Assembly (NCBI RefSeq): GCF_015207825.1
Contig: NZ_JADEWC010000002.1
Location: 124,001 to 188,000, forward strand
Length of the DNA stretch: 64,000 nucleotides
Direction: 5' to 3'
DNA from: Cyanobacterium stanieri LEGE 03274
Lineage (GTDB): Bacteria; Cyanobacteriota; Cyanobacteriia; Cyanobacteriales; Cyanobacteriaceae
Made by a program: the position numbers and the translations under genes. This document shows positions 1,226 to 44,088 of this stretch, in pieces (positions within the stretch are counted from its first letter, which is position 1; each line of letters opens with the position of its first letter). A model generated the notes under the pieces. The model did not search any database and was not told the origin of the DNA. It saw nothing but the letters and a program-made list of their open reading frames with translations.

Positions 1226-1274
1226 GTTCAATTTATTGAACGAACTACCATTAGCCTTGTAATTCATTACACGG
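1226..1274 (+). repeat. Solo bipartite REP-like element
   Basis: First palindrome GTTCAATTTATTGAAC (1226-1241), a 13-nt spacer ending TTAG, then a second palindrome of about 20 bp (1255-1274) with arms CCTTGTAA/TTACACGG. About 62 bp here are nearly identical to 41531-41590, and the same design recurs at 44040-44088 and in the two large arrays. It lies between the ABC exporter and mreD. Confidence 0.8.
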
Positions 1275-1339
1275 TGGAGCTGTGAAGGTACAATCTATTT
1301 ATGAATTATCCAAACTTGATATAATTCACTACAAGGGGA

Positions 1340-2054: not shown

Positions 2055-5000
2055 ATGCTCAACTCCGTTTTTAAAAGTTGTTATCCTAGATTAGAAATAT
2101 TATCAGGAAACTTACAACTAGATCTTTTTGCCGCCAAATTAAAATCGGTAGTTGAAAACAAAGCCCCTCAAGTTTATCAAAATCCAGACTTATTTTTTGC
2201 CAATACTTTCCCCACTGATGGCATAAAAACCCTCATTAGAGAAGTATTTACCCGTCTAAGTGGTAAAGGTAGCGGTTCACCTATTCTACGCCTCGAAACC
2301 AGCTTTGGGGGCGGTAAAACCCATGATGAGATAGCGATTTGGCATATTGCTAAATCTGGGCGTACCATTCAAGGTTTAGAGAGATTTACGGATTTAGATA
2401 TTATTCCTACTCAACCGATTCAAGTAGCCGCCATTGATGGGAGAGATTTGGATGCAGAAAATGGGGTAATTCATCAAGACACAGGGGTAACGACTTATAC
2501 TTTGTGGGGTGAAATTGCCTATCAGATAGGGGGAGTAGAAGGTTATCAATTATTGCAAAAGAGCGATCGCACCTTATTAAGCCCCGGTACATCAGTGATG
2601 GAAGCCTTAATAAAAGATAAACCGACGGTAATCATGCTAGATGAAATTGCCCGTTATCTAAGCATGGCAAGGGGGAAAAAAGTAGAAGATAGTAACCTAG
2701 GAAAACAGGTAGTTAGTTTCCTATTTTCGTTAATGGATTTAGCATCTGCCACCAATAACCTAGTCTTAGTGTATTCCCTAGCCTCTAGTAGTGATACCTT
2801 TGCCGAGGAAACCAACGAATTAAAAGAATTATTGAGCGCCTCCGCCCGTCAAGAAAGAATTTTAACCCCTAGCACCGATGTAGAAATATATAATATTGTT
2901 AAACAAAGACTTTTCGACTCCGTAGATGAAGAAGCAGGGAAAAAAGTAGCTTCGGCTTATCTGCAAATGTATAAAACAGCGCCCCTTAATTTGCCCGATA
3001 GTTGTAAAGATGCTACCTATGCCGAAGCCATTGCCCAAAGTTATCCCTTCCATCCCGAATTATTTAATCTCCTTACCAAAAAAATCGCCACCATCGATGA
3101 ATTTCAACGTACCAGGGGCGCTCTACGCCTACTAGCCCAACTGGTGCGTTATGTGTGGAATAATCATCATAAAAATGATGAAGATAACCCAGAAAACAAT
3201 CTGCCCTTGATTCATACCCACCACATACCCATGGGTAAAGAAGAAAATATCACCAACGAATTAACCTCCAAAATTCAAAGAAACACCATGCGCCCTGCCA
3301 TTAACGCAGATATTTTTAACCCCACAGGCAGAAAAGCCTACGCCCAACAACAGGATGAGCAATGGTTAATAGCGGGGAAACCTCCCTTTACCTCCTATGT
3401 AGCCAGAACTATTTTTCTTCATTCCCTTAACTATGGTATCAGTGCCGGGATTCGTCAAGCTGAGTTGAATTTATCCCTTCTCACTCCGAAAGTTGAATTA
3501 AATTTTGTTGATAACACCCTAGAAAAATTACAAACCGTGGCATGGTATTTGGATGTTGACCCTATTACTACCATAGCAAGATTTAAAGAAGAACCCTCCA
3601 TCAATAAAATTATCACAGAAGAAAAAGAGCAGATAGGCAGGGGAGAAGCAAAAGAAGAATTACGCAAACGCCGAGATACTATCTTTGCCAAAAAGTTTTT
3701 TACCCCCATCAGCGCCCCCAACAACCCCGTTGATGTGGACGATCGCCCCGATGATGTGGTATTGTGTCTTATGGATTTTGATGACATTACCATCGCCGAA
3801 TCGACGGAATTTGCCCCTTCTTCGTTAGTTGATATTCTCAATAAGACGGGAGAATCAGGACGTTTTCGTATTTATCGTAACCGTATTTTGTTCTTGGTTG
3901 CCAATAAAGGAGAGTTGGAAAAAGCCATAGACGTGACGAAGGAATATAAAGCCATCCAAAGCATCCTCAAATCCCAGACAAGGCTAGAAGACTTATCCCA
4001 AACCCAACAAAAACAACTCAAACAAAGGGGCGCTGACAAAGAATTAGGAGTCAGACAAGGTATTTCTAACGCCTATCGTCACCTATTCTATCCCGACTTT
4101 GACCCAATCAAAGCTCCTGAAGGCTTAAAACATTTCATTTTATCTCCCCAAGATGCCAACACCGTCAAAGGTAAAAATAATCAACAGGATATTATCTTAA
4201 AAGCGCTCAAAGACTGTCAAAAAATTCGGGGAGATGAACCCCTTAAACCCTATGCCCCAGCTTATATCCAACAAAAAGTATGGCCAGCAGGGTTGGATAA
4301 TATTACCACCAAAGCCATCAAAGAAACCTTTGTTAAGGATTTGGGTTTAAAATTTTTATTAGATCAAGAAATCTCCCTCTTTCGGGATACCATTCGCCAA
4401 GGGTTGGTTGATGGTATTTGGGATTTGGAGGTTAACTCACCAGACAAAAAGACAACCTATATTAAAACCGATACTCCTTTAAGCAATCTTCCCCCCCTCA
4501 TCGAGTTTTCCGACAAATATATTCTTTATCGTCGGGGTATTTTACAACCGCCCCAGCCCAAGATAATTGAACTTTCTGGGCAAGTTATTAACCCTGAAAC
4601 AAAAGAGGTTAGGGTGCGCTGGAAAGCTAATAATGCCTTAGCAGTTACTTTATATCAGGATAATAGTCTAGTGGGTGATAACTTCCGTTATAGCGATGAA
4701 TATGCCACCACCATTGAGAAGTTAACCGTCTTTAAAGTAGTGGCTAATTATGGTGATGGTGAAACGGCTACCCAAGAAATTACCATGGATTTAGTTACTT
4801 CTAGGATGAAGGAAAAAACAGGTAATTATGTGGTTGATAATAATGATCTTTTTAAGATTATTAAACCTACTGAAATTGTCAAAGATGGTACTATTAATGG
4901 TACTTTTAATTATTTAAAAGATGAATGTTTAGATAATAAAATCAAGGGAATTTCTAGCATTATTTTTACTGTGGATAATGTGATGGATTATCGTAAAATT

Positions 5001-5330
5001 AATACGGCTTTACCTTTGTTAAATAGACCTCAATTATGGTCAATAAAAATAGATCAAAGTATTACAATTCAAGCCCCAGAACAGTTTTTACGCCTAGAAT
5101 ATCAGGGAGAGGTTAATAATTTTAGAACTTTGTTTAATACTGTTAATAGTTTACTAAATATTCCTAATAATGAGGCAATAATATCGTTAACTATTACCCT
5201 TGATTTTGTTAATCCTATCGTACCTGATGGTACGGAATTTAATATGATTTTTGATCATTTGAAGCGTAATCCTGTGGATAGATTGAGTTTAAGGGCGATG
5301 TTAGTTAATGATGAGAAAACATCTCCATAA
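2055..5330 (+). CDS. DUF499-type P-loop ATPase of a defence-like cassette
   Basis: A 1,091-residue protein with the DUF499 layout: an N-terminal helical lead, then Walker A in TSFGGGKTH (about residues 82-90), a Walker B-like VIMLDEIAR near 193-201, and a long C-terminal region with no recognised catalytic motif. Families of this kind are known from genomes where they sit beside DUF1156 methyltransferases and SNF2/PLD helicases in phage-defence islands; both partners are present here (7448-10351 and 12076-15288). The likely role is an ATP-driven scaffold or DNA-sensing motor, which is inferred. No strong ribosome site is visible before ATG 2055. The 3' end runs straight into repeat array A. 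Confidence 0.78.
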   Translation: MLNSVFKSCYPRLEILSGNLQLDLFAAKLKSVVENKAPQVYQNPDLFFANTFPTDGIKTLIREVFTRLSGKGSGSPILRLETSFGGGKTHDEIAIWHIAKSGRTIQGLERFTDLDIIPTQPIQVAAIDGRDLDAENGVIHQDTGVTTYTLWGEIAYQIGGVEGYQLLQKSDRTLLSPGTSVMEALIKDKPTVIMLDEIARYLSMARGKKVEDSNLGKQVVSFLFSLMDLASATNNLVLVYSLASSSDTFAEETNELKELLSASARQERILTPSTDVEIYNIVKQRLFDSVDEEAGKKVASAYLQMYKTAPLNLPDSCKDATYAEAIAQSYPFHPELFNLLTKKIATIDEFQRTRGALRLLAQLVRYVWNNHHKNDEDNPENNLPLIHTHHIPMGKEENITNELTSKIQRNTMRPAINADIFNPTGRKAYAQQQDEQWLIAGKPPFTSYVARTIFLHSLNYGISAGIRQAELNLSLLTPKVELNFVDNTLEKLQTVAWYLDVDPITTIARFKEEPSINKIITEEKEQIGRGEAKEELRKRRDTIFAKKFFTPISAPNNPVDVDDRPDDVVLCLMDFDDITIAESTEFAPSSLVDILNKTGESGRFRIYRNRILFLVANKGELEKAIDVTKEYKAIQSILKSQTRLEDLSQTQQKQLKQRGADKELGVRQGISNAYRHLFYPDFDPIKAPEGLKHFILSPQDANTVKGKNNQQDIILKALKDCQKIRGDEPLKPYAPAYIQQKVWPAGLDNITTKAIKETFVKDLGLKFLLDQEISLFRDTIRQGLVDGIWDLEVNSPDKKTTYIKTDTPLSNLPPLIEFSDKYILYRRGILQPPQPKIIELSGQVINPETKEVRVRWKANNALAVTLYQDNSLVGDNFRYSDEYATTIEKLTVFKVVANYGDGETATQEITMDLVTSRMKEKTGNYVVDNNDLFKIIKPTEIVKDGTINGTFNYLKDECLDNKIKGISSIIFTVDNVMDYRKINTALPLLNRPQLWSIKIDQSITIQAPEQFLRLEYQGEVNNFRTLFNTVNSLLNIPNNEAIISLTITLDFVNPIVPDGTEFNMIFDHLKRNPVDRLSLRAMLVNDEKTSP

Positions 5331-5384
5331 TGCGTGGTGTAATAGATTGTTGGTTATGTTTTCATCCTAAAAAACAAATATCGA

Positions 5385-7412
5385 GTTTAATTCATTAAAC
5401 GAAAAATCCGTAGCCTCGGAATTTATTGCGAGGCGATATATGACGATAACCCATAACGTTATAAATCATTGAGGTGTATTCCCATCACCCATCGTGTAAT
5501 AAATTGTTGGATTATCATCATCCCCCACCATGAAATAAATTTCATGGCTAATAATTTTACGTTCAATAAATTGAACTAAGATAATCATAAAACCCCAGCG
5601 CACCTTACACCCCACAAAAATATCGAGTTTAATTCATTAAACGAAAAATCCGTAGCCTCGGAATTCATTACGAGGCGATATATGACGATAGTCGATTTAA
5701 TTATCATCATCCCCCACCATGAAATAAATTTCATGGCTAATGGTTTCACGTTCAATAAATTGAACTAGAATAATCTTAAAAATTAATCTTTTCTAACTCA
5801 TTAATAATTGTGTTATCCCGATGATGTTGTTTTTGGTTTTTTATATAATCAATTACCATGGGTAAACCTCTTTTTCCCACCGTGAAAATGCCGTAGCCAT
5901 TCTGCCAATAGAAAGCATTATTATCTATTTTGCCAACGAAATTAGAACTACTACCCTTAATTTTTCTTACATATTCAGATACTGCCATATTTGGAGGAAT
6001 TGAGACTAATAAATGAATATGATTTGGCATACTATTAATACCATGAACGATACAACTAAATTCCTTTGACTTATTAACAATATATTTATGTAATCTTTCT
6101 TCTATGGAGAAATTAATCAGGGGTAATCTTTCCTTTGTTGCCCATACGATGTGATAATATAATTGCCAGTATGCCATTGATATTATTATTAATTAATATT
6201 GATTCTTTGTCGTATTTTAAGCTCAATAAGCAATAAAAAATGATAGAGTTTAATTCATTAAACGGAAAACCCGTAGCCTCGGAATTCATTACGAGGCGAT
6301 ATTAAACGATAACCCATAACGTTATAAATCATTGAGGTGTATTCCCATCACCCATCGTGTAATAAATTGTTGGATTATTATCATCCCCCACCATGAAATA
6401 AATTTCATGGCTAATGGTTTCACGTTTAATAAATTGAACTAAGATAATCATAAAACCCCCAGCGCACCTTACACCCCACCAAAAAATATCGAGTTTAATT
6501 CATTAAACGAAAAATCCCGTAGCCTCGGAATTCATTACGAGGCGATATATGACGATAGTCGATTTAATTATCATCATCCCCCACCATGAAATAAATTTCA
6601 TGGCTAATAATTTCACGTTCAATAAATTGAACTAAGACTACCATAAAACCCCCAGCGCCCTTACACCCCACAAAAAATTATAGAGTTTAATTCATTAAAC
6701 GAAAAATCCCGTAGCCTCGGAATTTATTACGAGGCGATATATGACGATAGTCGATTTAATTATCATCATCCCCCACCATGAAATAAATTTCATGGCTAAT
6801 AATTTCACGTTCAATAAATTGAACTAAGACTACCATAAAACCCCCAGCGCCCTTACACCCCACAAAAAATTATAGAGTTTAATTCATTAAACGAAAAATC
6901 CCGTAGCCTCGGAATTCATTACGAGGCGATATTAAACGATAACCCATAACGTTATAAATCATTGAGGTGTATTCCCATCACCCATCGTGTAATAAATTGT
7001 TGGATTATCATCATCCCCCACCATGAAATAAATTTCATGGCTAATAATTTCACGTTCAATAAATTGAACTAAGACTATCATAAAACCCCCAGCGCCCTTC
7101 ACCCCACCAAAAAATATCGAGTTTAATTCATTAAACGAAAAATCCCGTAGCCTCGGAATTTATTACGAGGCGATATATGACGATAGTCGATTATTACCAT
7201 AAAACCCCAGCGCCCTTCACCCCACCAAAAAATATCGAGTTTAATTCATTAAACGAAAAAACCCGTAGCCTCGGAATTTATTACGAGGCGATATATGACG
7301 ATAGTCGATTATTACCATAAAACCCCCAGCGCACCTTACACCCACCAAAAAAATATCGAGTTTAATTCATTAAACGAAAAATCCGTAGCCTCGGAATTTA
7401 TTACGAGGCGAT
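5385..7412. repeat. REP-like hairpin array A
   Basis: About 2 kb of tandem, partly inverted modules. Nine copies of a forward element start with GTTTAATTCATTAAAC at 5385, 5627, 6248, 6493, 6685, 6877, 7121, 7239 and 7360. Each is followed after 12-13 nt by GTAG and a second hairpin with arms GCCTCG/CGAGGC. Six copies of a reverse-oriented element have the palindrome CCATGAAATAAATTTCATGG (5528, 5718, 6391, 6584, 6777, 7021) followed by GTTCAATAAATTGAAC. Spacing between forward elements falls into classes near 243, 192 and 120 bp, so units gain or lose whole modules. One interval is 621 bp because it holds the transposase at 5776-6177. The array separates the convergent 3' ends of the ATPase and methyltransferase genes. 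Confidence 0.93.
5776..6177 (-). CDS. tnpA: IS200-like Y1 (HUH) transposase, possible REP-associated
   Basis: A 133-aa Transposase_17 (IS200/IS605 TnpA-like) protein. The HUH metal-binding pair is in PNHIHLLVSI (about residue 50), and the Y1 region is WQNGYGIF...VIDYIKNQKQHH near 108-124, where the tyrosine of DYIKNQ is the expected nucleophile. Such enzymes cut and join single-stranded hairpin DNA. Length and motifs are intact, so it is probably functional. It has no tnpB partner and no obvious IS boundary; it sits inside array A between copies of the hairpin repeat. That is the arrangement of REP-associated tyrosine transposases (RAYTs), although an ordinary IS200-type insertion is an alternative. 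Confidence 0.88.
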   Translation of the reverse strand: MAYWQLYYHIVWATKERLPLINFSIEERLHKYIVNKSKEFSCIVHGINSMPNHIHLLVSIPPNMAVSEYVRKIKGSSSNFVGKIDNNAFYWQNGYGIFTVGKRGLPMVIDYIKNQKQHHRDNTIINELEKINF

Positions 7413-7447
7413 ATTAAACAATAACCCATCATTCATTACGAGGTTAA

Positions 7448-10351
7448 TCACCCCTCAAACATCTCCGTCTGGAAAAATTGTACCTTCGACTTAATCTCAT
7501 CAATACCCAACCAAAGATTAATCAAAGTTTGTTTCTCCTTCATACTATCAGGAATCACCTTAAAAGCCACCTCCATCACCTTCACCAACAAATCATTACC
7601 CCCTAACCCCGTATTCTTGAGGAATTTGCGCACCGCTTCCAAATCCGCCTCATCCTCATATATCCCTATCAAAGCATGTAACCCATCGATGAGATAATCC
7701 ATAGAAAACTCTTGGGGATTGATAGTAAAAGCCCGTTTTTTGAGCCTTTGTTGCGGTGTTAATAACTTACAAATACCACTGGCAGAATCAATTAACTTAT
7801 ATTCTTTTGCCAAATCATTGACATTAAAACCACCCACCGCCAAAGCCAACTGTCTAGCTTCATCAAAAGGAAACTCCCGCGCGCCAAAGGCATCCCATGC
7901 CAATAAATACCACTGAGTTAGGGCATCAAAACCAATGGTATCGGTTTGTAATAGTTTGCGGAAACGATAACCAGCAATGGCTTTTCTGGCTTCGGCGAAA
8001 GCAACTTCTGGGCGCACTTCTTTCCCCGTATTATCAAGGATAGGATAGGATTTAGAAAAGACGTTTAAGGCTACCCCAAAAGCGCTGAGATATAAATCAA
8101 TACCCGTAATGTCGTTATCCTCAAAGTATTCTGCCCGTGATTCCACTAGGTTAGCCACTTCTGGGCGTAAGTCATCCCACCATGCTTGGGGTGCGTTACT
8201 ATCCCTCTTTCTACATACTAATATTACCGTGCTAGAAACACTATTCTTCTTCGCTTGGTGGAGGTTTTGGGGGTTTTCCGTGGATACTGCCCATGAAGCG
8301 GTGATTTCAAACCCTGCATCGATTAAGGATTTGGCTAACACATCCCACGCGCCCGATTCTTTATGGTTAAATTGTACCGTTAAAACGCCCTCATCCTTCA
8401 ACACCCGATAGGCTTCATTCCATGCCATATTCATTTTGCCTTCATAATCCTGTTTGGCTAACTCGTCGGGGGAGATACCCATATTACGGAAACGGGAAGG
8501 GTTGGCAACGGCTTCCCTATCTTTGTCGGTTAATTCTTGCCAAAAGATGTCGGGGAATATGTCTCCTAATATTCTTTTATTCCAGACGTAAAAAAAGTCG
8601 GACAATTCGGCATATTGGATTGTACCATAATAGGGTGGATCTGTGACAATTGCTTCTAAGGTTTTGTCGGGTATGTGATATAAGCTATCGGCAGATTCGA
8701 GGTTTATGTTAATGTTTGATGGGTTGATTTCTTTGGTTAATTTTGTCTCTGGGGGTGTTTCTACGGTTAGGGTTAATTGTTGTTGTTTTTTGCTGGTTTT
8801 TTCTTGTTTATTTACTACATTTTTTTCTTGGTTTATATATTCGCAAAGTTTGCTAAATTCAGAGGTAAACGCATCAGCACATTGATTCCATAATTCACCT
8901 ATTCCAGAAACTTCAGGATAATTCCAATTAAGATTTAATGAGTGTTGCGTTGAGGCTCTTTCAACAGAAAATCTCCCAGAATTCCAAATAGATAATCGAC
9001 AATTTCTATCCACGCACCTATCCAATACTAAAGCTAAATAGGTGATAATTGCTTGGGCTTTTTCTAGTTCATATTCCGCTAATATTTTGGCTTTTGCCTC
9101 GTTGATTATCTCTACATAACTCACAAGAGTTAATAATTGACGAGGGTTAAATAATTCATGCCATTGATTAATACCAATATTAGGTAATCTTTCAGTTTCT
9201 TCACCCATAGGAATATCAATATCAGGTATTAGTTGATTTAAGTGATATTCATCTGATTTAGCTTCTAAATATTCCTGTGCTTTTTTAACTCCTTCTAAAT
9301 CTAAATCTGTGGGGATTCTAAATTGTAAACTGCCTTTTCCTTCCTTAAACGCCACGGCATATAATTGATGTCCTAATCCTTCGGCTTGTGCCTGTTGTTT
9401 GATATAATCATCTTCGATAACATTGTCACAATTACAACATTTGCCAACCCCTCGCCCAATGGTATTATAATCGCTAGGGTCAAATTCTATAGTGGATTGT
9501 CCATCATTAATATTAATAGTTGTACCCTTTCCTTTTTTGCCCTTTATTAACTCAAAGTCCACTCTTTTTTCAGCAAGATTAGGAATAGGTTTAACGGCAT
9601 ACCAATCTGATGTTACTTTTCTAGCTTGTCCTTTTCCTGCGTAGTTACTGGTTTTACTTAGCCACCAATTAGGAGAAAGGGGAATGGTAGAATGACAATG
9701 GGGGCAATTTACCGTGTGCGCCCAAAGGTAATTTTGTACGGTTTCGTTGGGTTGAGATGGGAAAAAGTCTTTTAATCGGGTTTTTGCTTCACTTGCCACA
9801 TAGTTAACCCATTTGTCGATGTCTTGTTGTAAATCCTTACCAAACTTAAGGGGATATTCCATCCCAGCTTTCATGGTGATGTAGGCAACGGGATTTAAAT
9901 CGGAGGCGAAGACATTTAAGTTATACCTAACCCCCTCAAAGGGAATGCTACCCCCTCCCGCGAAAGCGTCGAGGATGCTGGGGGTGTCTTTTCCCCATGT
10001 GGTTTGACAATGGTGTTGTAGTCGTTGGATTTGCTTTTGGGTGGGGGGTTGTTTATAAAGACGTATTTCTTTGATGTTGCGCAGTTTGTCTTTTTCTGCT
10101 TCGGTTTTGCTAGATTTTTCCCAAAATTCGATTTCCTCTTGGCTATAGATACCCATGATGTAGAGAAATTCTTCTGTGGTGATGTCGGCGGGGAGGAGGG
10201 AGGCTAACACGGAGGCGCGGGAAAAGGATAATGGTTTGCGAGAATACCAACGATGTAATCCTTTGAAGGGGTTTCCGCCATGTTCGTAATATACTTGTTG
10301 GTTGAGGAGTTTTACGGGGAATATCTTTTCGATGAATAGTTTTTTGCGCAT
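7448..10351 (-). CDS. DUF1156 adenine-specific DNA methyltransferase
   Basis: A 967-aa protein beginning with a DUF1156 block (GLHRWYSRKPLSFSRASVL, about residues 32-51). The SAM-binding motif I DAFAGGGS lies near residue 128 and the amino-methyltransferase motif IV DPPYYG near 569. This order is that of large COG1743-type N6-adenine or N4-cytosine methylases, which in defence cassettes probably mark self DNA. Two cysteine pairs (CPHC near 214, CCNC near 307) suggest a zinc ribbon between the motifs. It is transcribed opposite to the DUF499 gene and lies between arrays A and B, so its promoter must lie in or next to array B. The target sequence cannot be read from the protein. Confidence 0.88.
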   Translation of the reverse strand: MRKKLFIEKIFPVKLLNQQVYYEHGGNPFKGLHRWYSRKPLSFSRASVLASLLPADITTEEFLYIMGIYSQEEIEFWEKSSKTEAEKDKLRNIKEIRLYKQPPTQKQIQRLQHHCQTTWGKDTPSILDAFAGGGSIPFEGVRYNLNVFASDLNPVAYITMKAGMEYPLKFGKDLQQDIDKWVNYVASEAKTRLKDFFPSQPNETVQNYLWAHTVNCPHCHSTIPLSPNWWLSKTSNYAGKGQARKVTSDWYAVKPIPNLAEKRVDFELIKGKKGKGTTININDGQSTIEFDPSDYNTIGRGVGKCCNCDNVIEDDYIKQQAQAEGLGHQLYAVAFKEGKGSLQFRIPTDLDLEGVKKAQEYLEAKSDEYHLNQLIPDIDIPMGEETERLPNIGINQWHELFNPRQLLTLVSYVEIINEAKAKILAEYELEKAQAIITYLALVLDRCVDRNCRLSIWNSGRFSVERASTQHSLNLNWNYPEVSGIGELWNQCADAFTSEFSKLCEYINQEKNVVNKQEKTSKKQQQLTLTVETPPETKLTKEINPSNININLESADSLYHIPDKTLEAIVTDPPYYGTIQYAELSDFFYVWNKRILGDIFPDIFWQELTDKDREAVANPSRFRNMGISPDELAKQDYEGKMNMAWNEAYRVLKDEGVLTVQFNHKESGAWDVLAKSLIDAGFEITASWAVSTENPQNLHQAKKNSVSSTVILVCRKRDSNAPQAWWDDLRPEVANLVESRAEYFEDNDITGIDLYLSAFGVALNVFSKSYPILDNTGKEVRPEVAFAEARKAIAGYRFRKLLQTDTIGFDALTQWYLLAWDAFGAREFPFDEARQLALAVGGFNVNDLAKEYKLIDSASGICKLLTPQQRLKKRAFTINPQEFSMDYLIDGLHALIGIYEDEADLEAVRKFLKNTGLGGNDLLVKVMEVAFKVIPDSMKEKQTLINLWLGIDEIKSKVQFFQTEMFEG

Positions 10352-10446
10352 TTTCTCCTCTTAATCGGGTGTTGCCGTTATCCCACCATGAAATGGGGTT
10401 TTGCCTTCGCCGTGTAATAAATAGTTGGGTTTGTTGCCATCAACCG

Positions 10447-11480
10447 CCATGAAATGAATTTCATGGCTACTATGTTTTCGTTCAATGAATTGAACTAGGG
10501 TGATAAGGTTATTGTAAGGGGCGATGGTTGATTATTCCCATTACCCACCATGAAATAAATTCCACGGCTACCGTGTTTTCGTTCAATGAATTGAACTAGG
10601 GTAATAAGGCTATTATAAGGGGCGATCGTACTTTAAATCAAATAGAGTTTAATTTATTAAACGGTAAATCCCGTAGCCTCGTAATTCATTGCGAGGCGGT
10701 ATGTGGCGATAGTCGATTATTCCCATTACCCACCATGAAATAAATTTCATGGCTACCATGTTTTCGTTCAATGAATTGAACTAGGGTAATAAGGTTATTA
10801 TAAGGGGCGATCGTACTTTAAATCAAATGGAGTTTAATTTATTAAACGGTAAATCCGTAGCCTCGTAATTCATTGCGAGGCGGTATGTGGCGATAATCCA
10901 TAGGGTGATGGATGGTTTGATGTGTTGCCGTTATCCCACCATGAAATAAATTTCATGGCTACCATGTTTTCGTTCAATGAATTGAACTAGGATAATAAGG
11001 TTATTATAAGGGCGATCGTACTTTAAATCAAATGGAGTTTAATTTATTAAACGGTAAATCCGTAGCCTCGTAATTCATTGCGAGGCGGTATGTGGCGATA
11101 GTTGATTATTCCCGTTATCCCACCATGAAGTAAATTCCACGGCTACCATGTTTTCGTTCAATGAATTGAACTAGGGTAATATGGTTATTATAAGGGGCGA
11201 TCGCACTTTAAATCAAATGGAGTTTAATTTATTAAACGATAAATCCCGTAGCCTCGTAATTCATTGCGAGGCGATATGTGGCGATAGTCGATTATTCCCA
11301 TTACCCACCGTGTAATAAATTCCACGGTTACCATGTTTTCGTTCAATGAATTGAACTAGGATAATAAGGTTATTATAAGGGCGATCGTACTTTAAATCAA
11401 ATGGAGTTTAATTTATTAAACGATAAATCAGTAGCCTCGTAATTCATTGCGAGGCGGTATGTGGCGATAGTTGATTATTC
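10447..11480. repeat. REP-like hairpin array B
   Basis: About 1 kb of units with a period near 185-205 bp. Forward elements start with GTTTAATTTATTAAAC at 10647, 10832, 11037, 11222 and 11406, each followed by a GTAG-preceded hairpin with arms GCCTCG/CGAGGC. Reverse elements have GTTCAATGAATTGAAC at 10480, 10581, 10766, 10972, 11156 and 11341, preceded by CCATGAAA- or CCGTGTAA-type hairpins. Units are joined by a HIP1-like gcgatcgt/gcgatcgc stretch. It shares its design with array A but has its own fixed base changes, so the two arrays expanded separately. It occupies almost all of the region upstream of the methyltransferase start. Confidence 0.92.
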
Positions 11481-11503
11481 CCATAATTCATTAGGAGAGA
11501 ATA

Positions 11504-11932
11504 TTAATCAGCCAATAAAATACGCAACGCCCTCAACGCTAAATTACCCCTATCACCGCTAATTTTAGCAAACCAATAATAAGCCTCCTCATGACTCATC
11601 GCCATTATGCTATTCATAATACTAATTATTTTTTCTTCTTTTCTTAACGGTTGAATAGTTTTAAAAAGTATCGCTAAATTAATTCCAGAAGATTCCGTTA
11701 AAATATAGTTAGATTTTCTTTTATTATTCAGAGTTTTAGGGTCATATTTATTATCTTTTAATGTTTGATAAATAGCATCTCTGACTAAGATAATCTTATT
11801 CATTTTTAAGACTCCTACTTTTTGGGGAGATAATCTTTTTTTCTCTCCAGCTTTTTTGTAGTCCCACTGATATAATTGGATAATAAAATGATTATCTTTT
11901 AAAGGAACTATCCTCAACTGAAACTCTTGCAC
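11504..11932 (-). CDS. Small uncharacterised protein of the defence-like cassette
   Basis: 142 aa, not assigned to a named family. The N-terminal half is beta-rich and basic (FQLRIVPLKDNHFIIQLYQW). The C-terminal part, MSHEEAYYWFAKI...GNLALRALRILLAD, is helical and looks conserved in style. It has no membrane segment or signal peptide and no nuclease or methylase motif. It is co-directional with the methyltransferase but separated from it by array B, and is divergent from the helicase gene (143 bp apart, probably a shared control region). Its position between the methylase and helicase genes suggests a small accessory subunit of the same system; this is inference from context only. Confidence 0.6.
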   Translation of the reverse strand: MQEFQLRIVPLKDNHFIIQLYQWDYKKAGEKKRLSPQKVGVLKMNKIILVRDAIYQTLKDNKYDPKTLNNKRKSNYILTESSGINLAILFKTIQPLRKEEKIISIMNSIMAMSHEEAYYWFAKISGDRGNLALRALRILLAD

Positions 11933-12075
11933 TTTTTAGCTAATAGTTAATAATGATTGACAATTAGTTTTTATAAATTTATCACCCTAGAGACTGGGCA
12001 GTCATTTTAAAATAAATTTTAAAAAAGAAGATAAATTCTGTTATTCACAAAGATATTATACCACTATTATTACCA

Positions 12076-15000
12076 ATGTTATTAACAAAAAAATCTTGGT
12101 TAATTAGTTACTCTAGTAACGAACATAATCCCATTATTGATTTTTATATTCCTGCCCTAGAGTGTGCCATCACATATGACCGCAAATCAGGCTTTTTTAA
12201 TAGTGCTATTTTATCAAAAGTCGCTCAAGGATTAGATGTGATGGTTTATAATCAGGGGCAAATTCGCTTGATTATGGGCTGTGAGTTTAGCAAGGATGAT
12301 TTAGATGCTATTAGTAAAGGATATAAACTAAAAGAGCAATTAAACACTTGTTTAGAAAGACAATTATTAGAACCTGATAGCTTAACTCAGTTAAAACATT
12401 ATGAAATTTTAAGTTGGTTAATAGCCCATGATTTTTTAGAAATTAAAATTGCTATACCTTTAGCTAAAAATGGCTTACCTAATCAATTAAATAAACATAA
12501 ATTATTTCACGAAAAAACAGGAATTTTTACAGATAAAGAGGGTAACAAAGTAGCGTTTAGTGGTTCAAATAATGAGTCTTTGGGTGGCTGGGAAAGGAAT
12601 ATAGAATCATTTCATGTTTATTGTAGTTGGGAGGGAGAAAGGGATTTAGAAAGGGTAAATGAGGAAGAATATCGCTTTGAACAGTTGTGGAATAATTTAG
12701 CCCCTAATGTGAGGGTTTTTGATATTCCCAATGGAGTAAAAAATAAGTTGTTGCGCTACACTCCACAATCAATTAATAATAATCCAACATTAATAATTGA
12801 TCATCTTCAGCAAGATAATTCAGAAAATAATAATCAACCAAAACAATTAGAGGAAAATAATCAGCAATACAACAAAGAAGAAATAATTAATTTAAGTGAA
12901 GAAGAAGAAATAGAGATAGAAAAAGAAAAATTTGCCCCTTTATTAAATATTCATAATCATGGGGGATGTTTAGCTTATGCTTTAGAGTCTATTCCCGTTA
13001 AACCATGGATTCATCAAAGAAAAATATTACTAAAATTTATCGCTAATTTTCCCAATTCCGCCTTAATTTGTGATGAGGTGGGATTAGGTAAAACCATTAG
13101 CACTGGTATTATTGTCCGTTATTTACTTATTTCCCGTCAAGTGCGACGGGTATTAATTCTTGCTCCTGCTAGTGTACAATCTCAATGGCATGAGGAGTTA
13201 AGGGAAAAATTTAATCTTCATTTTTGGAGTTATGGGGGAGGGGTTTTCACAAATCCTGATAAGGAGGTTATTAATCCTGTGGGAAATCCTTGGAATGAGG
13301 TGGATTTGGTGTTGGCTTCTTCCCATTTGGTGCGTCAGGGTAGCCGTAGTCAAGAGTTGTTGGAGGGGGAAGATTGGGATTTGATTGTGGTAGATGAGGC
13401 ACACCATGCGCGTCGTCGTAATCCTCAACGGCGGGAAAATACTCCTAATCGTCTGCTGGATTTATTACAGCAACTCAAGGCGAAAACGAAAAGTTTGTTA
13501 TTGTTGACGGCAACACCCATGCAATTAGACACTATCGAAGTTTTTGATTTACTTAATTTGGTGGGTTTAAAAGGATTATGGCAGTATCAAGATAATTTTT
13601 GTGATTATTACGATAGCTTATCCCAACCCGTTAACGAATTAAGGCTAAATTTTTGGCAATCTCTGGCAGTTAATTATTTTCAGCAAGGGGGAAAATCTTG
13701 TAATATTCTTGAACAATATTTACTACAAAAAAATCGTCTTGTATTCTATCGTCTTAAGGATACATGGCAGAAAGGCAGGGCGATCGCCCATCCCCGTAAA
13801 TTATGTAAAGATGATGCTTTTATAGAGGCTTCTCGACAGTTTTTGACGGTGAATACTCCCCTCAAAGATTTGATGTTTCGTCATACTAGGGAAACTCTAC
13901 GGGAATATTATCGCCGTGGTATTTTGCGTCAGTCTATACCCACTAGACTTGTGTTTGACAATGCGATCGCCCTTAATCATACCAATGAAATTCCATTATA
14001 TCAAGCCGTAAGCGACTATGTGAGACATTTTTATAATTTAGCCCAACAGGAAAACCGCAAAGGATTAGGCTTCTTGATGACATTATACCGTCGTCGTCTC
14101 ACCAGCTCATTTTATGCCATCCAAAAATCATTACAACGACGGCTAGAGGGCATTAGCATCACCGATGATGACTTAATGGATTTGGATGATGCCGATGATA
14201 ATATTATTCAAGGATTAGAAAAATATTATAAACCCACAGATCCATCAGAAATAGAGTATTTAGAAAATATTTTAAGTAAATTTGAACAAGTGGGCGAAGA
14301 TACTAAACTATCCCATTATTTGAGTCTTTTACGTCAAGAATTAACCCATAGAGAAAAAGTTATTACCTTCTTTCAATATACCGACACCATGGATTATGTA
14401 CGAGATACTTTAGTACAGATGTACGGTAATCAAGTGGCTTGTTATTCAGGTAGAGGAGGGGAATTATACCAAGATGGTAAATGGAAAGTAGTAAAAAAGG
14501 AAATAATTAAAAAACTTTTTACTATTGATAATAGTAGTACATCTCCAGAATTGTCATTAAATAATGGTAAAAATATGATAGACGGTAACGAATTGCCGAA
14601 AATCAAAATATTATTATGTACTAAATCGGCTAGTGAGGGGTTAAATTTACAAACTTGCGGAGTATTGTTTCAATATTCCTGCCCGTGGAATCCCATGCAA
14701 ATTGAACAACAAATCGGGCGTTTAGATAGAATCGGACAAATTCACCCCACCATTCATATCCACAACTTTTATTATGATGGTACTGTAGAAGCCAAAGTAT
14801 ATCAGAAGTTGAGATCTAGGATAAATGCTTTTGAAACAGTAGTGGGAGACTTACAACCCATTTTAGCACAAGTACCCACCTTTATTGAACAGGCGGTCAT
14901 GGCCGCAGACCCTGAAGAAGAAGGGGTTTTATTGGCTGAGTTGGATAATTTAATGGATAATCCTCCATCACGCCCAGATTTAAATAAAATTGTATCGATG

Positions 15001-15288
15001 AATGTTTCTGCTGACTTGGAATTGTTAAGACAAAATATTGCACCTAATCCCCTCCCTCCTCAACAAGTAGAAAAAATATTTACTCAATCTTCATGGTTAA
15101 AAAGTCAAGGAATTATATTTGAGAATAAAGGTGATTTAACATGGCAGATAAATTGGCACGATAACATTTATCATGTTACTTTTTATCCTGAAGTTTATGA
15201 AGAATATCCCTCACTCAAACTGATGTCTTTGGGTGAACCACTCATCGAAAAGTTTTTGATATTATTATGTAGCTTTTTTTATTCGTAA
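12076..15288 (+). CDS. PLD-nuclease / SNF2-family helicase fusion
   Basis: 1,070 aa in three parts. Residues 1-220 form a phospholipase-D-like nuclease domain with one HxK motif (FHEKTGIF near 143) and the following SGSNNES. Residues 225-290 are an acidic, asparagine-rich linker. From about 300 there is an SNF2-type helicase: Walker A DEVGLGKT near 336, DEAHH near 438, TATPMQ near 479, and a helicase C domain ending in EQQIGRLDRIGQ near 877. The combination resembles the PLD and SNF2 components (DrmC- and DrmD-like) of DISARM-type defence, here on one chain. It probably translocates on and cuts foreign DNA. The protein ends in a hydrophobic FLILLCSFFYS, which could mark a shortened C terminus. 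Confidence 0.85.
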   Translation: MLLTKKSWLISYSSNEHNPIIDFYIPALECAITYDRKSGFFNSAILSKVAQGLDVMVYNQGQIRLIMGCEFSKDDLDAISKGYKLKEQLNTCLERQLLEPDSLTQLKHYEILSWLIAHDFLEIKIAIPLAKNGLPNQLNKHKLFHEKTGIFTDKEGNKVAFSGSNNESLGGWERNIESFHVYCSWEGERDLERVNEEEYRFEQLWNNLAPNVRVFDIPNGVKNKLLRYTPQSINNNPTLIIDHLQQDNSENNNQPKQLEENNQQYNKEEIINLSEEEEIEIEKEKFAPLLNIHNHGGCLAYALESIPVKPWIHQRKILLKFIANFPNSALICDEVGLGKTISTGIIVRYLLISRQVRRVLILAPASVQSQWHEELREKFNLHFWSYGGGVFTNPDKEVINPVGNPWNEVDLVLASSHLVRQGSRSQELLEGEDWDLIVVDEAHHARRRNPQRRENTPNRLLDLLQQLKAKTKSLLLLTATPMQLDTIEVFDLLNLVGLKGLWQYQDNFCDYYDSLSQPVNELRLNFWQSLAVNYFQQGGKSCNILEQYLLQKNRLVFYRLKDTWQKGRAIAHPRKLCKDDAFIEASRQFLTVNTPLKDLMFRHTRETLREYYRRGILRQSIPTRLVFDNAIALNHTNEIPLYQAVSDYVRHFYNLAQQENRKGLGFLMTLYRRRLTSSFYAIQKSLQRRLEGISITDDDLMDLDDADDNIIQGLEKYYKPTDPSEIEYLENILSKFEQVGEDTKLSHYLSLLRQELTHREKVITFFQYTDTMDYVRDTLVQMYGNQVACYSGRGGELYQDGKWKVVKKEIIKKLFTIDNSSTSPELSLNNGKNMIDGNELPKIKILLCTKSASEGLNLQTCGVLFQYSCPWNPMQIEQQIGRLDRIGQIHPTIHIHNFYYDGTVEAKVYQKLRSRINAFETVVGDLQPILAQVPTFIEQAVMAADPEEEGVLLAELDNLMDNPPSRPDLNKIVSMNVSADLELLRQNIAPNPLPPQQVEKIFTQSSWLKSQGIIFENKGDLTWQINWHDNIYHVTFYPEVYEEYPSLKLMSLGEPLIEKFLILLCSFFYS

Positions 15289-41436: not shown

Positions 41437-41480
41437 AGGTTTCAGGTATTAAGATGATGAAGACTATGGGTAATAATCAT

Positions 41481-41520
41481 TTAATATCAAGTCTGCTCGA
41501 TCACTTACAAATTAGCAGTA
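41481..41520 (+). repeat. 40-bp dispersed repeat, copy 1
   Basis: TTAATATCAAGTCTGCTCGA followed by tcacttacaaattagcagta. It matches 63963-64000 at about 34 of 38 positions. Here it directly precedes a REP-like element (41532-41580), so the two may form a composite unit. Confidence 0.65.
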
Positions 41521-41531
41521 TTAATATCTTA

Positions 41532-41580
41532 GTTCAATAAATTGAACGAACTACCATTAGCCGTGTAATTCATTACACGG
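41532..41580 (+). repeat. Solo bipartite REP-like element
   Basis: GTTCAATAAATTGAAC (41532-41547), a spacer ending TTAG, and the perfect hairpin CCGTGTAATTCATTACACGG (41561-41580). Nearly identical to 1226-1274 over 62 bp, including the flank to GCTGTGAA. Confidence 0.8.
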
Positions 41581-41766
41581 TGGGGCTGTGAAAATATTTG
41601 ATATAAATTGTTCATTATCAATTGTTTACACCCATGAAAGATTGCGATTTTTATCCCCAACTCAAATTATTTATTGAAACACTACCTCAAAAAGTACGGA
41701 AAACCTACATATATAAATACTTCAATCACCATAAAATAAAAACATAGCAACCACTGTCAAAACATT

Positions 41767-42075: not shown

Positions 42076-42086
42076 AAATCAATTAG

Positions 42087-42216
42087 GGCATTGCTGAGTA
42101 TGAAGCATTATTAAATTACAGTAAATATATAGTATTAAAACTATTATTACTATTGCCCATTGCCCATTACCTATTGCCAAACTCAACTAAAAATCATACC
42201 TTAATTCACCAACACC
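42087..42216 (-). repeat. MITE-like element, copy 3
   Basis: 130 bp from GGCATTGCTGAGTATGAAGC to CACCAACACC. On the minus strand it matches 25972-26100 almost base for base, differing by one extra heptamer (four GGYAATR units instead of three) and a 6-bp deletion near the right end. It begins 11 bp after the DUF1232 stop. Confidence 0.85.
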
Positions 42217-42232
42217 TAAATTAAGTTAAAAA

Positions 42233-43971: not shown

Positions 43972-44039
43972 GTGAGTGATACTTTTTTGGTATTGCTGAT
44001 TTTATGCTAAATCTGATTGATAAAACTTAGCATTACCCA

Positions 44040-44088
44040 CCGTGTAATGAATTACACGGCTACATAGATAACGTTCAATAAATTGAAC
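44040..44088 (-). repeat. Solo bipartite REP-like element
   Basis: Reverse orientation: CCGTGTAATGAATTACACGG (44040-44059) and GTTCAATAAATTGAAC (44073-44088). Read on the minus strand, the second hairpin is preceded by GTAG, the tetranucleotide typical of REP sequences. It is followed by short ACCTNAGACC-like repeats up to the end of glnN. Confidence 0.8.

Follow-up and report, generated by a model that had tools for sequence, protein, structure and literature searches.

A REP-like family of two-hairpin repeats and its candidate Y1 transposase of the IS200 class in Cyanobacterium stanieri

Introduction

Two arrays of hairpin repeats, one of them enclosing a gene for a Y1/HUH transposase, lie close together in the genome of Cyanobacterium stanieri LEGE 03274 (genome G000; assembly GCF_015207825.1, 3.19 Mb in 67 contigs) and raise the question of what the enzyme is to the repeats: their keeper, their parent, or a chance neighbor. 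The arrays are part of a 64,000-nt stretch (NZ_JADEWC010000002.1, positions 124,001 to 188,000, forward strand), hereafter called the window, whose positions we use throughout. A sequence-only reading of the window had proposed a domesticated IS200-like enzyme with its own family of repetitive extragenic palindromic (REP) elements, akin to the REP-associated tyrosine transposases (RAYTs). Our analysis points to a modified answer, to which we give a probability of roughly two in three: the arrays would represent a REP-like family with two tandem hairpins per unit, and the transposase gene of the first array, tnpA, would encode its dedicated, low-copy, and domesticated-looking Y1 HUH enzyme.

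Results

Searching for a first palindrome followed by a gap and TA(G/A)CC, we found 29 elements in the window, of which 15 form array A (5385 to 7409), 11 form array B (10446 to 11455), which has no transposase within it, and three are solos, in agreement with the numbers and places given by the sequence-only reading. A fixed-gap version of the pattern, allowing at most one mismatch, matched 22 times against 0.00 matches expected from 100 dinucleotide shuffles. Read in the forward orientation, an element consists of GTTYAATNNATTRAAC, a gap, a foot of (T/G)TAG, and a second palindrome of roughly 22 nt, for which the G of the foot serves as the first paired base. Illustrative examples are the forward element at 6248 to 6297 (palindrome 1 GTTTAATTCATTAAAC, gap, GTAG, palindrome 2 GCCTCGGAATTCATTACGAGGC) and the reverse element at 5716 to 5765 (palindrome 1 GTTCAATTTATTGAAC, TTAG, palindrome 2 with CCATGAAATTTATTTCATGG). 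The plan anticipated from the letters, that is, a palindrome, 12 to 13 nt, GTAG or TTAG, and a second hairpin, was borne out across the genome: among 69 distinct copies, arrays included, palindrome 1 is separated from the first G of palindrome 2 by 12 nt in 61 and by 13 nt in 8. The foot of these copies is TTAG in 40, GTAG in 28, and GTAA in one, a distribution in which only the first letter could vary widely, given that the pattern fixes TA(G/A)CC.

Array A contains nine forward elements (starting at 5385, 5627, 6248, 6493, 6685, 6877, 7121, 7239, and 7360) and six reverse ones (5527-5576, 5716-5765, 6390-6439, 6583-6632, 6775-6824, and 7020-7069). Five forward elements (starting at 10647, 10832, 11037, 11222, and 11406) and six reverse ones (10446-10495, 10547-10596, 10732-10781, 10938-10987, 11122-11171, and 11307-11356) make up array B, with one reverse copy reading GTAA for GTAG. 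Over most of both arrays the orientations alternate, the repeating doublet being a reverse plus a forward copy placed so that palindrome 1 is innermost in each. One of these doublets has tnpA at its center: the gene lies between the reverse element at 5716-5765 and the forward element at 6248-6297, with palindrome 1 directed toward it on both sides. This head-to-head arrangement, likewise noticed in the sequence-only reading, extends beyond the window. Among 150 listed places of the 5732 copies that an AGTC-type pattern detected across the order, 62 were paired within 100 bp, giving 30 -/+ pairs, one +/+ pair, and no +/- pair, with -/+ starts mostly 42 to 48 bp apart. The -/+ doublet is the arrangement of REPINs (REP doublets forming hairpins) and BIMEs (bacterial interspersed mosaic elements), here with four hairpins per doublet. 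Genome-wide, C. stanieri has 195 pattern matches (100 on the plus and 95 on the minus strand; reversed control, 0), and none of 20 sampled solos falls inside an open reading frame (ORF) of at least 100 aa, so that high copy number, intergenic position, and inverted pairs and arrays are all traits that the family has in common with REPs, REPINs, and BIMEs.

Both stems of the element covary. The spacer motif yielded 102 distinct elements, and for this analysis we took the 38 that also begin with AGTC, a requirement that leaves the four outermost pairs of stem 1 no freedom to vary; they come from 19 loci, in several cases from the same locus. In their gap-free alignment, 96.3% of pair cells hold standard pairs, and double-sided changes occur in 122 cells compared with a shuffle mean of 38.3. 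Covariation scores 0.469, as against 0.04 to 0.10 for slid pairings. One-sided changes amount to 5 cells in total, a scarcity more in line with hairpins of DNA than of RNA. All 102 elements, for which the spacer motif was the sole condition, show 83% pairing versus 29 to 57% for slid pairings. The two-hairpin unit is therefore unlike the single palindrome of a REP, as had been noted from the letters.

The enclosed gene (5776 to 6177, minus strand) is predicted from Pfam, NCBIfam, motifs, and a structural model to encode a Y1/HUH transposase of subclass 1.2 type. Its 133-aa product, with H53-I-H55, Y111, and YIKNQKQHH, is a complete Y1_Tnp protein (PF01797, 2.7e-30), just as the sequence-only reading had it, and C. 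stanieri has a single close copy. Of the relevant NCBIfam models, the protein passes that for IS200/IS605 (89.3 bits; cutoff, 55) and fails the REP-transposase model REP_Tyr_transpos (29.9 bits; cutoff, 80); in place of the Y---NP motif of class 2 RAYTs it has YIKNQKQHH. Residues Y111, Q115, H118, H119, W91, and Q92 are invariant. A profile search of the Protein Data Bank returned eight matches, all transposases with IS608 and ISDra2 first, and the TnpA-REP structure 4ER8 was not among these eight. Similarly, the best of five AlphaFold models (predicted local distance difference test score of 81; others, 75 to 48) compared best with IS608 (31% identity, template modeling score of 0.68, root mean square deviation of 7.7), with E. 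coli TnpA-REP 4ER8 at rank 30 (15% identity).

Judged by motif, rather than by the clustering of Quentin et al. 2018 (PMC6006769), this TnpA fits TnpA-Y1 subclass 1.2. In that paper, the subclass shares with it Y---Q--HH, WQ, a short protein, low copy number, and occurrence in Cyanobacteria, while its NHIH replaces the tabulated DH[IV]H and its 133 aa compare with a median of 148. The paper also describes subclass 1.2 as found mostly in Cyanobacteria and Bacteroidetes, low in copy number, generally without IS200 end structures, and not sharing the properties of insertion sequences (ISs), and tabulates it with REP "no". On the strength of motif and model scores, the predicted protein is not a classical RAYT. 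The sequence-only reading hence stands as far as an IS200-like enzyme with its own repeats is concerned, namely, a dedicated single-copy Y1 gene and a genome-wide REP-like family, but the RAYT label has to be withdrawn.

What looks like the genuine RAYT of C. stanieri lies elsewhere. A second HUH protein (L012; C8:19138-19389), with NHYH and YIHYNP, passes the REP-transposase model at 87.4 bits (cutoff, 80); its flanks bear single-hairpin GTAG repeats of their own, such as GTAGTTGCCACTTTAGTGGCA, and no two-hairpin element of the array family was present in them. The genome holds two systems side by side, a subclass 1.2 TnpA and a RAYT, each with its own repeats.

The partnership between this TnpA and two-hairpin elements is not peculiar to one cyanobacterium, as the sequence-only reading had framed it. 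In congener G004, a TnpA of 69% identity lies within its own cluster of seven of that genome's 16 element copies, in the order reverse-tnpA-forward as in C. stanieri. The nearest homologs in other genera are about 42 to 53% identical, and at 10 of 11 such loci (L053-L063) an element lies within 700 bp of tnpA, mostly quite different in sequence yet equal in plan, the type being AGTCNNNT..ANNNGACT, TTNNGCTAT, TTAG or TGAG, and a palindrome of about 22 nt. Searching de novo at the loci of 80 named relatives for paired hairpins 6 to 15 nt apart with a TAG-type foot, we found 70 units in 106 kb near tnpA as opposed to 3 in 175 kb of outer flanks and 1 in shuffled near flanks, with units at 33 of the 80 loci. 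Beyond Cyanobacteriota, and mostly on contigs of metagenome-assembled genomes, such units occur in phyla that we took from record titles, namely, Chloroflexota (L142, L157, L168, L169, L178, and L183), Acidobacteriota (L188), and Thermodesulfobacteriota (L194). Dropping the foot condition gave densities of 3.23 per kb near and 0.22 per kb far from the gene, where one unit may count on both strands.

Combining de novo and known patterns, we saw an element within 700 bp in 62 of 107 distinct relatives, specifically in 60 of 92 scoring above 150 bits and in 2 of 15 weaker ones; the same detector found elements at 1 of 20 loci of a sister clade (clade B) and at none of 15 loci of IS200 homologs. 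Clade B (L217-L236) is a second cyanobacterial TnpA group with Y---Q--HH. In a tree of TnpA proteins gathered by hidden Markov model search, clade B and IS200 each form one group (support, 100 each), and 80 of the 89 rows of the clade containing the array A protein (clade A) form one group as well (96), while nine clade-A rows branch outside (Bacteroidota, Planctomycetota, Acidobacteriota, Thermodesulfobacteriota L194, and one unnamed); the alignment has few columns, inner support is weak, and the position of the RAYT row, on a very long branch, is meaningless. Compared with the REP "no" entry in PMC6006769, clade A is often flanked by a dedicated two-hairpin family and clade B is not.

Two Chloroflexota loci, L142 and L157, share synteny around tnpA for 2.7 kb, and in both an element flanks the gene to the left and to the right at almost the same distance, which suggests that gene and elements were inherited together.

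Across 388 genomes of the order, the AGTC-type pattern was detected in 203, with a control near zero. Genomes with a strong clade-A gene (best E ≤ 1e-58; 82 of 388, with G220 and G338, which have partial genes, scored as lacking it) have a median of 20 element copies compared with 0 in the others (Mann-Whitney p 3e-16). Using a within-genus comparison as the sole control for kinship, we observed a higher median with clade A in 21 of the 23 genera holding both kinds of genome (permutation p 5e-5). Genus g1 was counted with the GTTYAAT pattern; g23, g45, g58, g86, and g122, with nothing but pattern zeros, were excluded, as was g56, whose clade-A genomes count 1, 1, and 0 and whose others are nearly all 0. 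By a reading of the match list, the gene is present as one strong copy in 75 of the 82 clade-A genomes; the two copies in G055 are 83% identical.

Many solos in the genus Cyanobacterium, however, lie inside a larger repeat resembling a miniature inverted-repeat transposable element (MITE), with ends TTATATCAAGT..ACTTGATATAA (for example, at about 41476-41640 in the window and at L197-L216 and L240-L255). The three solos of the window illustrate the range: the copy at 41532 to 41581 (plus strand, TTAG) has both arms, the right one weak; that at 1226 to 1275 (plus strand, TTAG) has the right arm, a left one not being found; and that at 44039 to 44088 (minus strand, GTAG) has neither. The arms on solos raise the possibility that a DDE-type transposase may have spread them, and hitch-hiking of this kind means that, in this genus, copy number alone proves no activity of TnpA. 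The count of 195 copies in C. stanieri is inflated by the arm-bearing repeat. An arm is present on 3 of 3 sampled G004 copies outside the tnpA cluster, a sample biased because the BLAST query behind most of it was itself a copy with an arm. Arms were found on none of 26 array elements in C. stanieri, on none of 7 in the G004 cluster, and, by a loose test, on 3 of 129 AGTC-type copies.

Discussion

Several observations weigh against a dedicated partnership of enzyme and element. At least one element is present in 135 of the 306 genomes without clade A, at least five in 82, and up to 173 in a single one; G002 and G011, both without a close TnpA, have 107 and 27 copies, respectively. Conversely, the AGTC-type pattern is absent from 14 of the 82 clade-A genomes, four of which (G000, G004, G052, and G058) carry elements of other sequence beside tnpA, and 45 of the 107 relatives are without an element by our detector. 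As for the stems, two of the five covariation measures, the numbers of pairs with a double change (10 versus 8.3) and of pair types (24 versus 21.8), are not distinct from those in shuffles. Among 23 sampled C. stanieri solos, 15 have at least one arm (left, 12; right, 13; both, 10) and 8 have neither, and the arm was seen on 11 of 15 copies sampled, with the same bias as in G004, from G002, where hitch-hiking on the MITE-like repeat is a likely source of the 107 copies. Lastly, no clean empty site emerged from comparing two C. stanieri solos with G004 and G003, whose intergenic regions are too diverged for a usable alignment. Taken singly, then, relatives rich in elements but without the transposase do exist, while the overall statistics of copy number with and without the gene run the other way. 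Five or more elements occur in 21 of 42 genomes that have clade B in place of clade A and in 61 of 264 with neither, and elements in genomes without clade A show that kinship, former presence, or another carrier also contributes.

Much of the above could be accommodated by regarding the elements as passengers or targets, spread by the MITE with TTATATCAAGT..ACTTGATATAA ends and its DDE transposase, or by some other enzyme, the link to TnpA being one of inherited neighborhood. The arms on sampled solos and on copies from the TnpA-less G002, along with the many genomes that retain elements without clade A, are its strengths, but it leaves aside the near absence of arms from the arrays, the G004 cluster, and the AGTC-type copies, as well as the recurrence of the link in other lineages and the dosage effect within genera; we consider it improbable. 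A similarly low weight goes to the notion that the elements are the ends of an ordinary mobile IS200/IS605 element or internal deletion products of it, comparable to MITEs or palindrome-associated transposable elements, with array A as one copy nested in repeats. IS200-type elements carry hairpins at both ends, the fold and model fit of TnpA are those of IS200, with HUH and Y motifs shared with IS608 and ISDra2, and in both C. stanieri and G004 tnpA has a reverse element on one side and a forward one on the other. Yet the multiple near-identical gene copies and fixed left and right ends of IS200/IS605 were not found here, and the 15 IS200 homologs in these genomes are without such elements. 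Where elements are present on both sides of tnpA, the nearest ones are oriented -+ in 12 cases, +- in 10, ++ in 5, and -- in 5, and their distance varies as well; this variation argues that there are no fixed IS ends. Among the comparisons listed, no transposon ends emerged from pairs of related tnpA loci, their homology stopping mostly near the gene ends or else, as at L142/L157, continuing through whole syntenic loci.

Two other explanations appear far less credible. Hairpins kept by selection as functional RNA or DNA structures, for instance as terminators or chromosome-organizing sites that TnpA merely maintains, would be in keeping with the strong stem covariation and with the intergenic position of 20 of 20 sampled solos, but hardly with a patchy distribution, large swings in copy number within a genus, tandem arrays of inverted pairs, and very few G-U pairs. 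Least plausible of all is that the elements belong to a classical class 2 RAYT with the array TnpA as a chance neighbor: such a RAYT does exist at C8:19138, but its flanks bear the other, single-hairpin repeats, and relatives of the array TnpA carry two-hairpin elements elsewhere.

Returning to a REP-like family with a dedicated enzyme, we propose a mechanism. IS608 has a dimeric enzyme that handles two hairpins on one strand, and the array A TnpA, which would retain the fold of IS200/IS608 and probably also dimerize as IS200 does, could bind an element on single-stranded DNA with each subunit taking one of its two hairpins. The foot of hairpin 2, (T/G)TAG or TGAG, and possibly the AG foot of hairpin 1, might guide where the enzyme cleaves. 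Elements would then be copied in trans, through cutting and rejoining, into new intergenic single-stranded sites, often as -/+ doublets with hairpin 1 inside, and local rejoining or recombination might build the arrays.

The closest known counterparts are the REP/RAYT systems, including REPtrons, REPINs (defined in PMC3116915), and BIMEs. As described in PMC6006769, PMC3116915, and PMC3733652, they share with the present system a Y1 gene of low copy number surrounded by palindromic repeats of its own, intergenic copies throughout the genome, arrays and pairs in inverted orientation, a GTAG-like foot, and a separate repeat family for each enzyme; they differ from it in that the unit here has two hairpins, with the TTAG, GTAG, or TGAG foot on the second, and the enzyme is of the IS200 class and not of class 2. 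PMC3733652 (Di Nocera and colleagues) reports double inverted repeats, or double palindromic terminal inverted repeats (TIRs), beside P. putida 607, P. fluorescens 4255, and some TIRYT genes. As here, these comprise two palindromes per flanking repeat beside a Y1 transposase, sometimes in hundreds of copies; unlike here, they are combinations of degenerated GTAG-1 units and unrelated stem-loops, or TIRs of RAYT-like genes, a distinction drawn from their description. The cyanobacterial GTAG families of the same text, also compared by description only, may overlap palindrome 2. In the open literature, judged mostly without full texts, we came across no report that links subclass 1.2 to a repeat with two hairpins.

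A REP-like system that pairs a class-1 enzyme with a unit of two hairpins is real and widespread. REPs are abundant in the genomes of many bacteria, and the system bears on how a transposase becomes a keeper of repeats. TnpA-REP proteins and IS200 belong to separate classes, and a class-1 enzyme that has a REP-like family to itself represents a possible second route or an intermediate. We are evenly divided over a broader version, according to which clade A of subclass 1.2 would be a second, independent route from IS200 to REP, with the dimer kept and an obligate two-hairpin substrate, one hairpin per subunit, in an old partnership spanning Cyanobacteriota and Chloroflexota and scattered in Acidobacteriota and Thermodesulfobacteriota, whose element sequence shifts with the enzyme lineage while the architecture stays fixed. 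The two-hairpin rule offers a sharp and inexpensive biochemical prediction, and the association provides a lead to the function of a subclass whose transposases have been described as generally lacking IS ends and REPs. Part of the palindromes scattered through cyanobacterial genomes may also trace to the element family; the very small cyanobacterial repeats reportedly treated by Elhai et al. in 2008 might include some of them.

Neighboring genes and repeats

The two arrays interrupt what may be an Hma-like defense locus (2055-15288), comprising a DUF499/HmaC-like ATPase (2055 to 5330, plus strand) to the left of array A, a DUF1156/HmaB-like DNA methylase (7448 to 10351, minus strand) between the two arrays, a DUF7680 protein, and a PLD/SNF2-type helicase. 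In G004, the array with tnpA (L195, G004:C1:176000-195900, 7969-15035) lies between a Methylase_S (type I specificity) gene and a gene for an EcoAI-type R subunit. HsdR-like and HsdM-like neighbors flank tnpA at L141 and L162.

An association with restriction-modification or defense as a rule was considered and rejected, no restriction-modification family being among the 25 commonest Pfam families of 77 neighbor ORFs at 43 cyanobacterial loci (121 further families fell outside this ranking). Using six defense proteins as BLAST queries, we obtained neighbor matches at 5 of 80 loci (L141, L162, L165, L178, and L183).

Finally, the window contains a different dispersed repeat at 42076-42224, of which roughly 50 to 150 bp match at many places in G001, G003, and G004.

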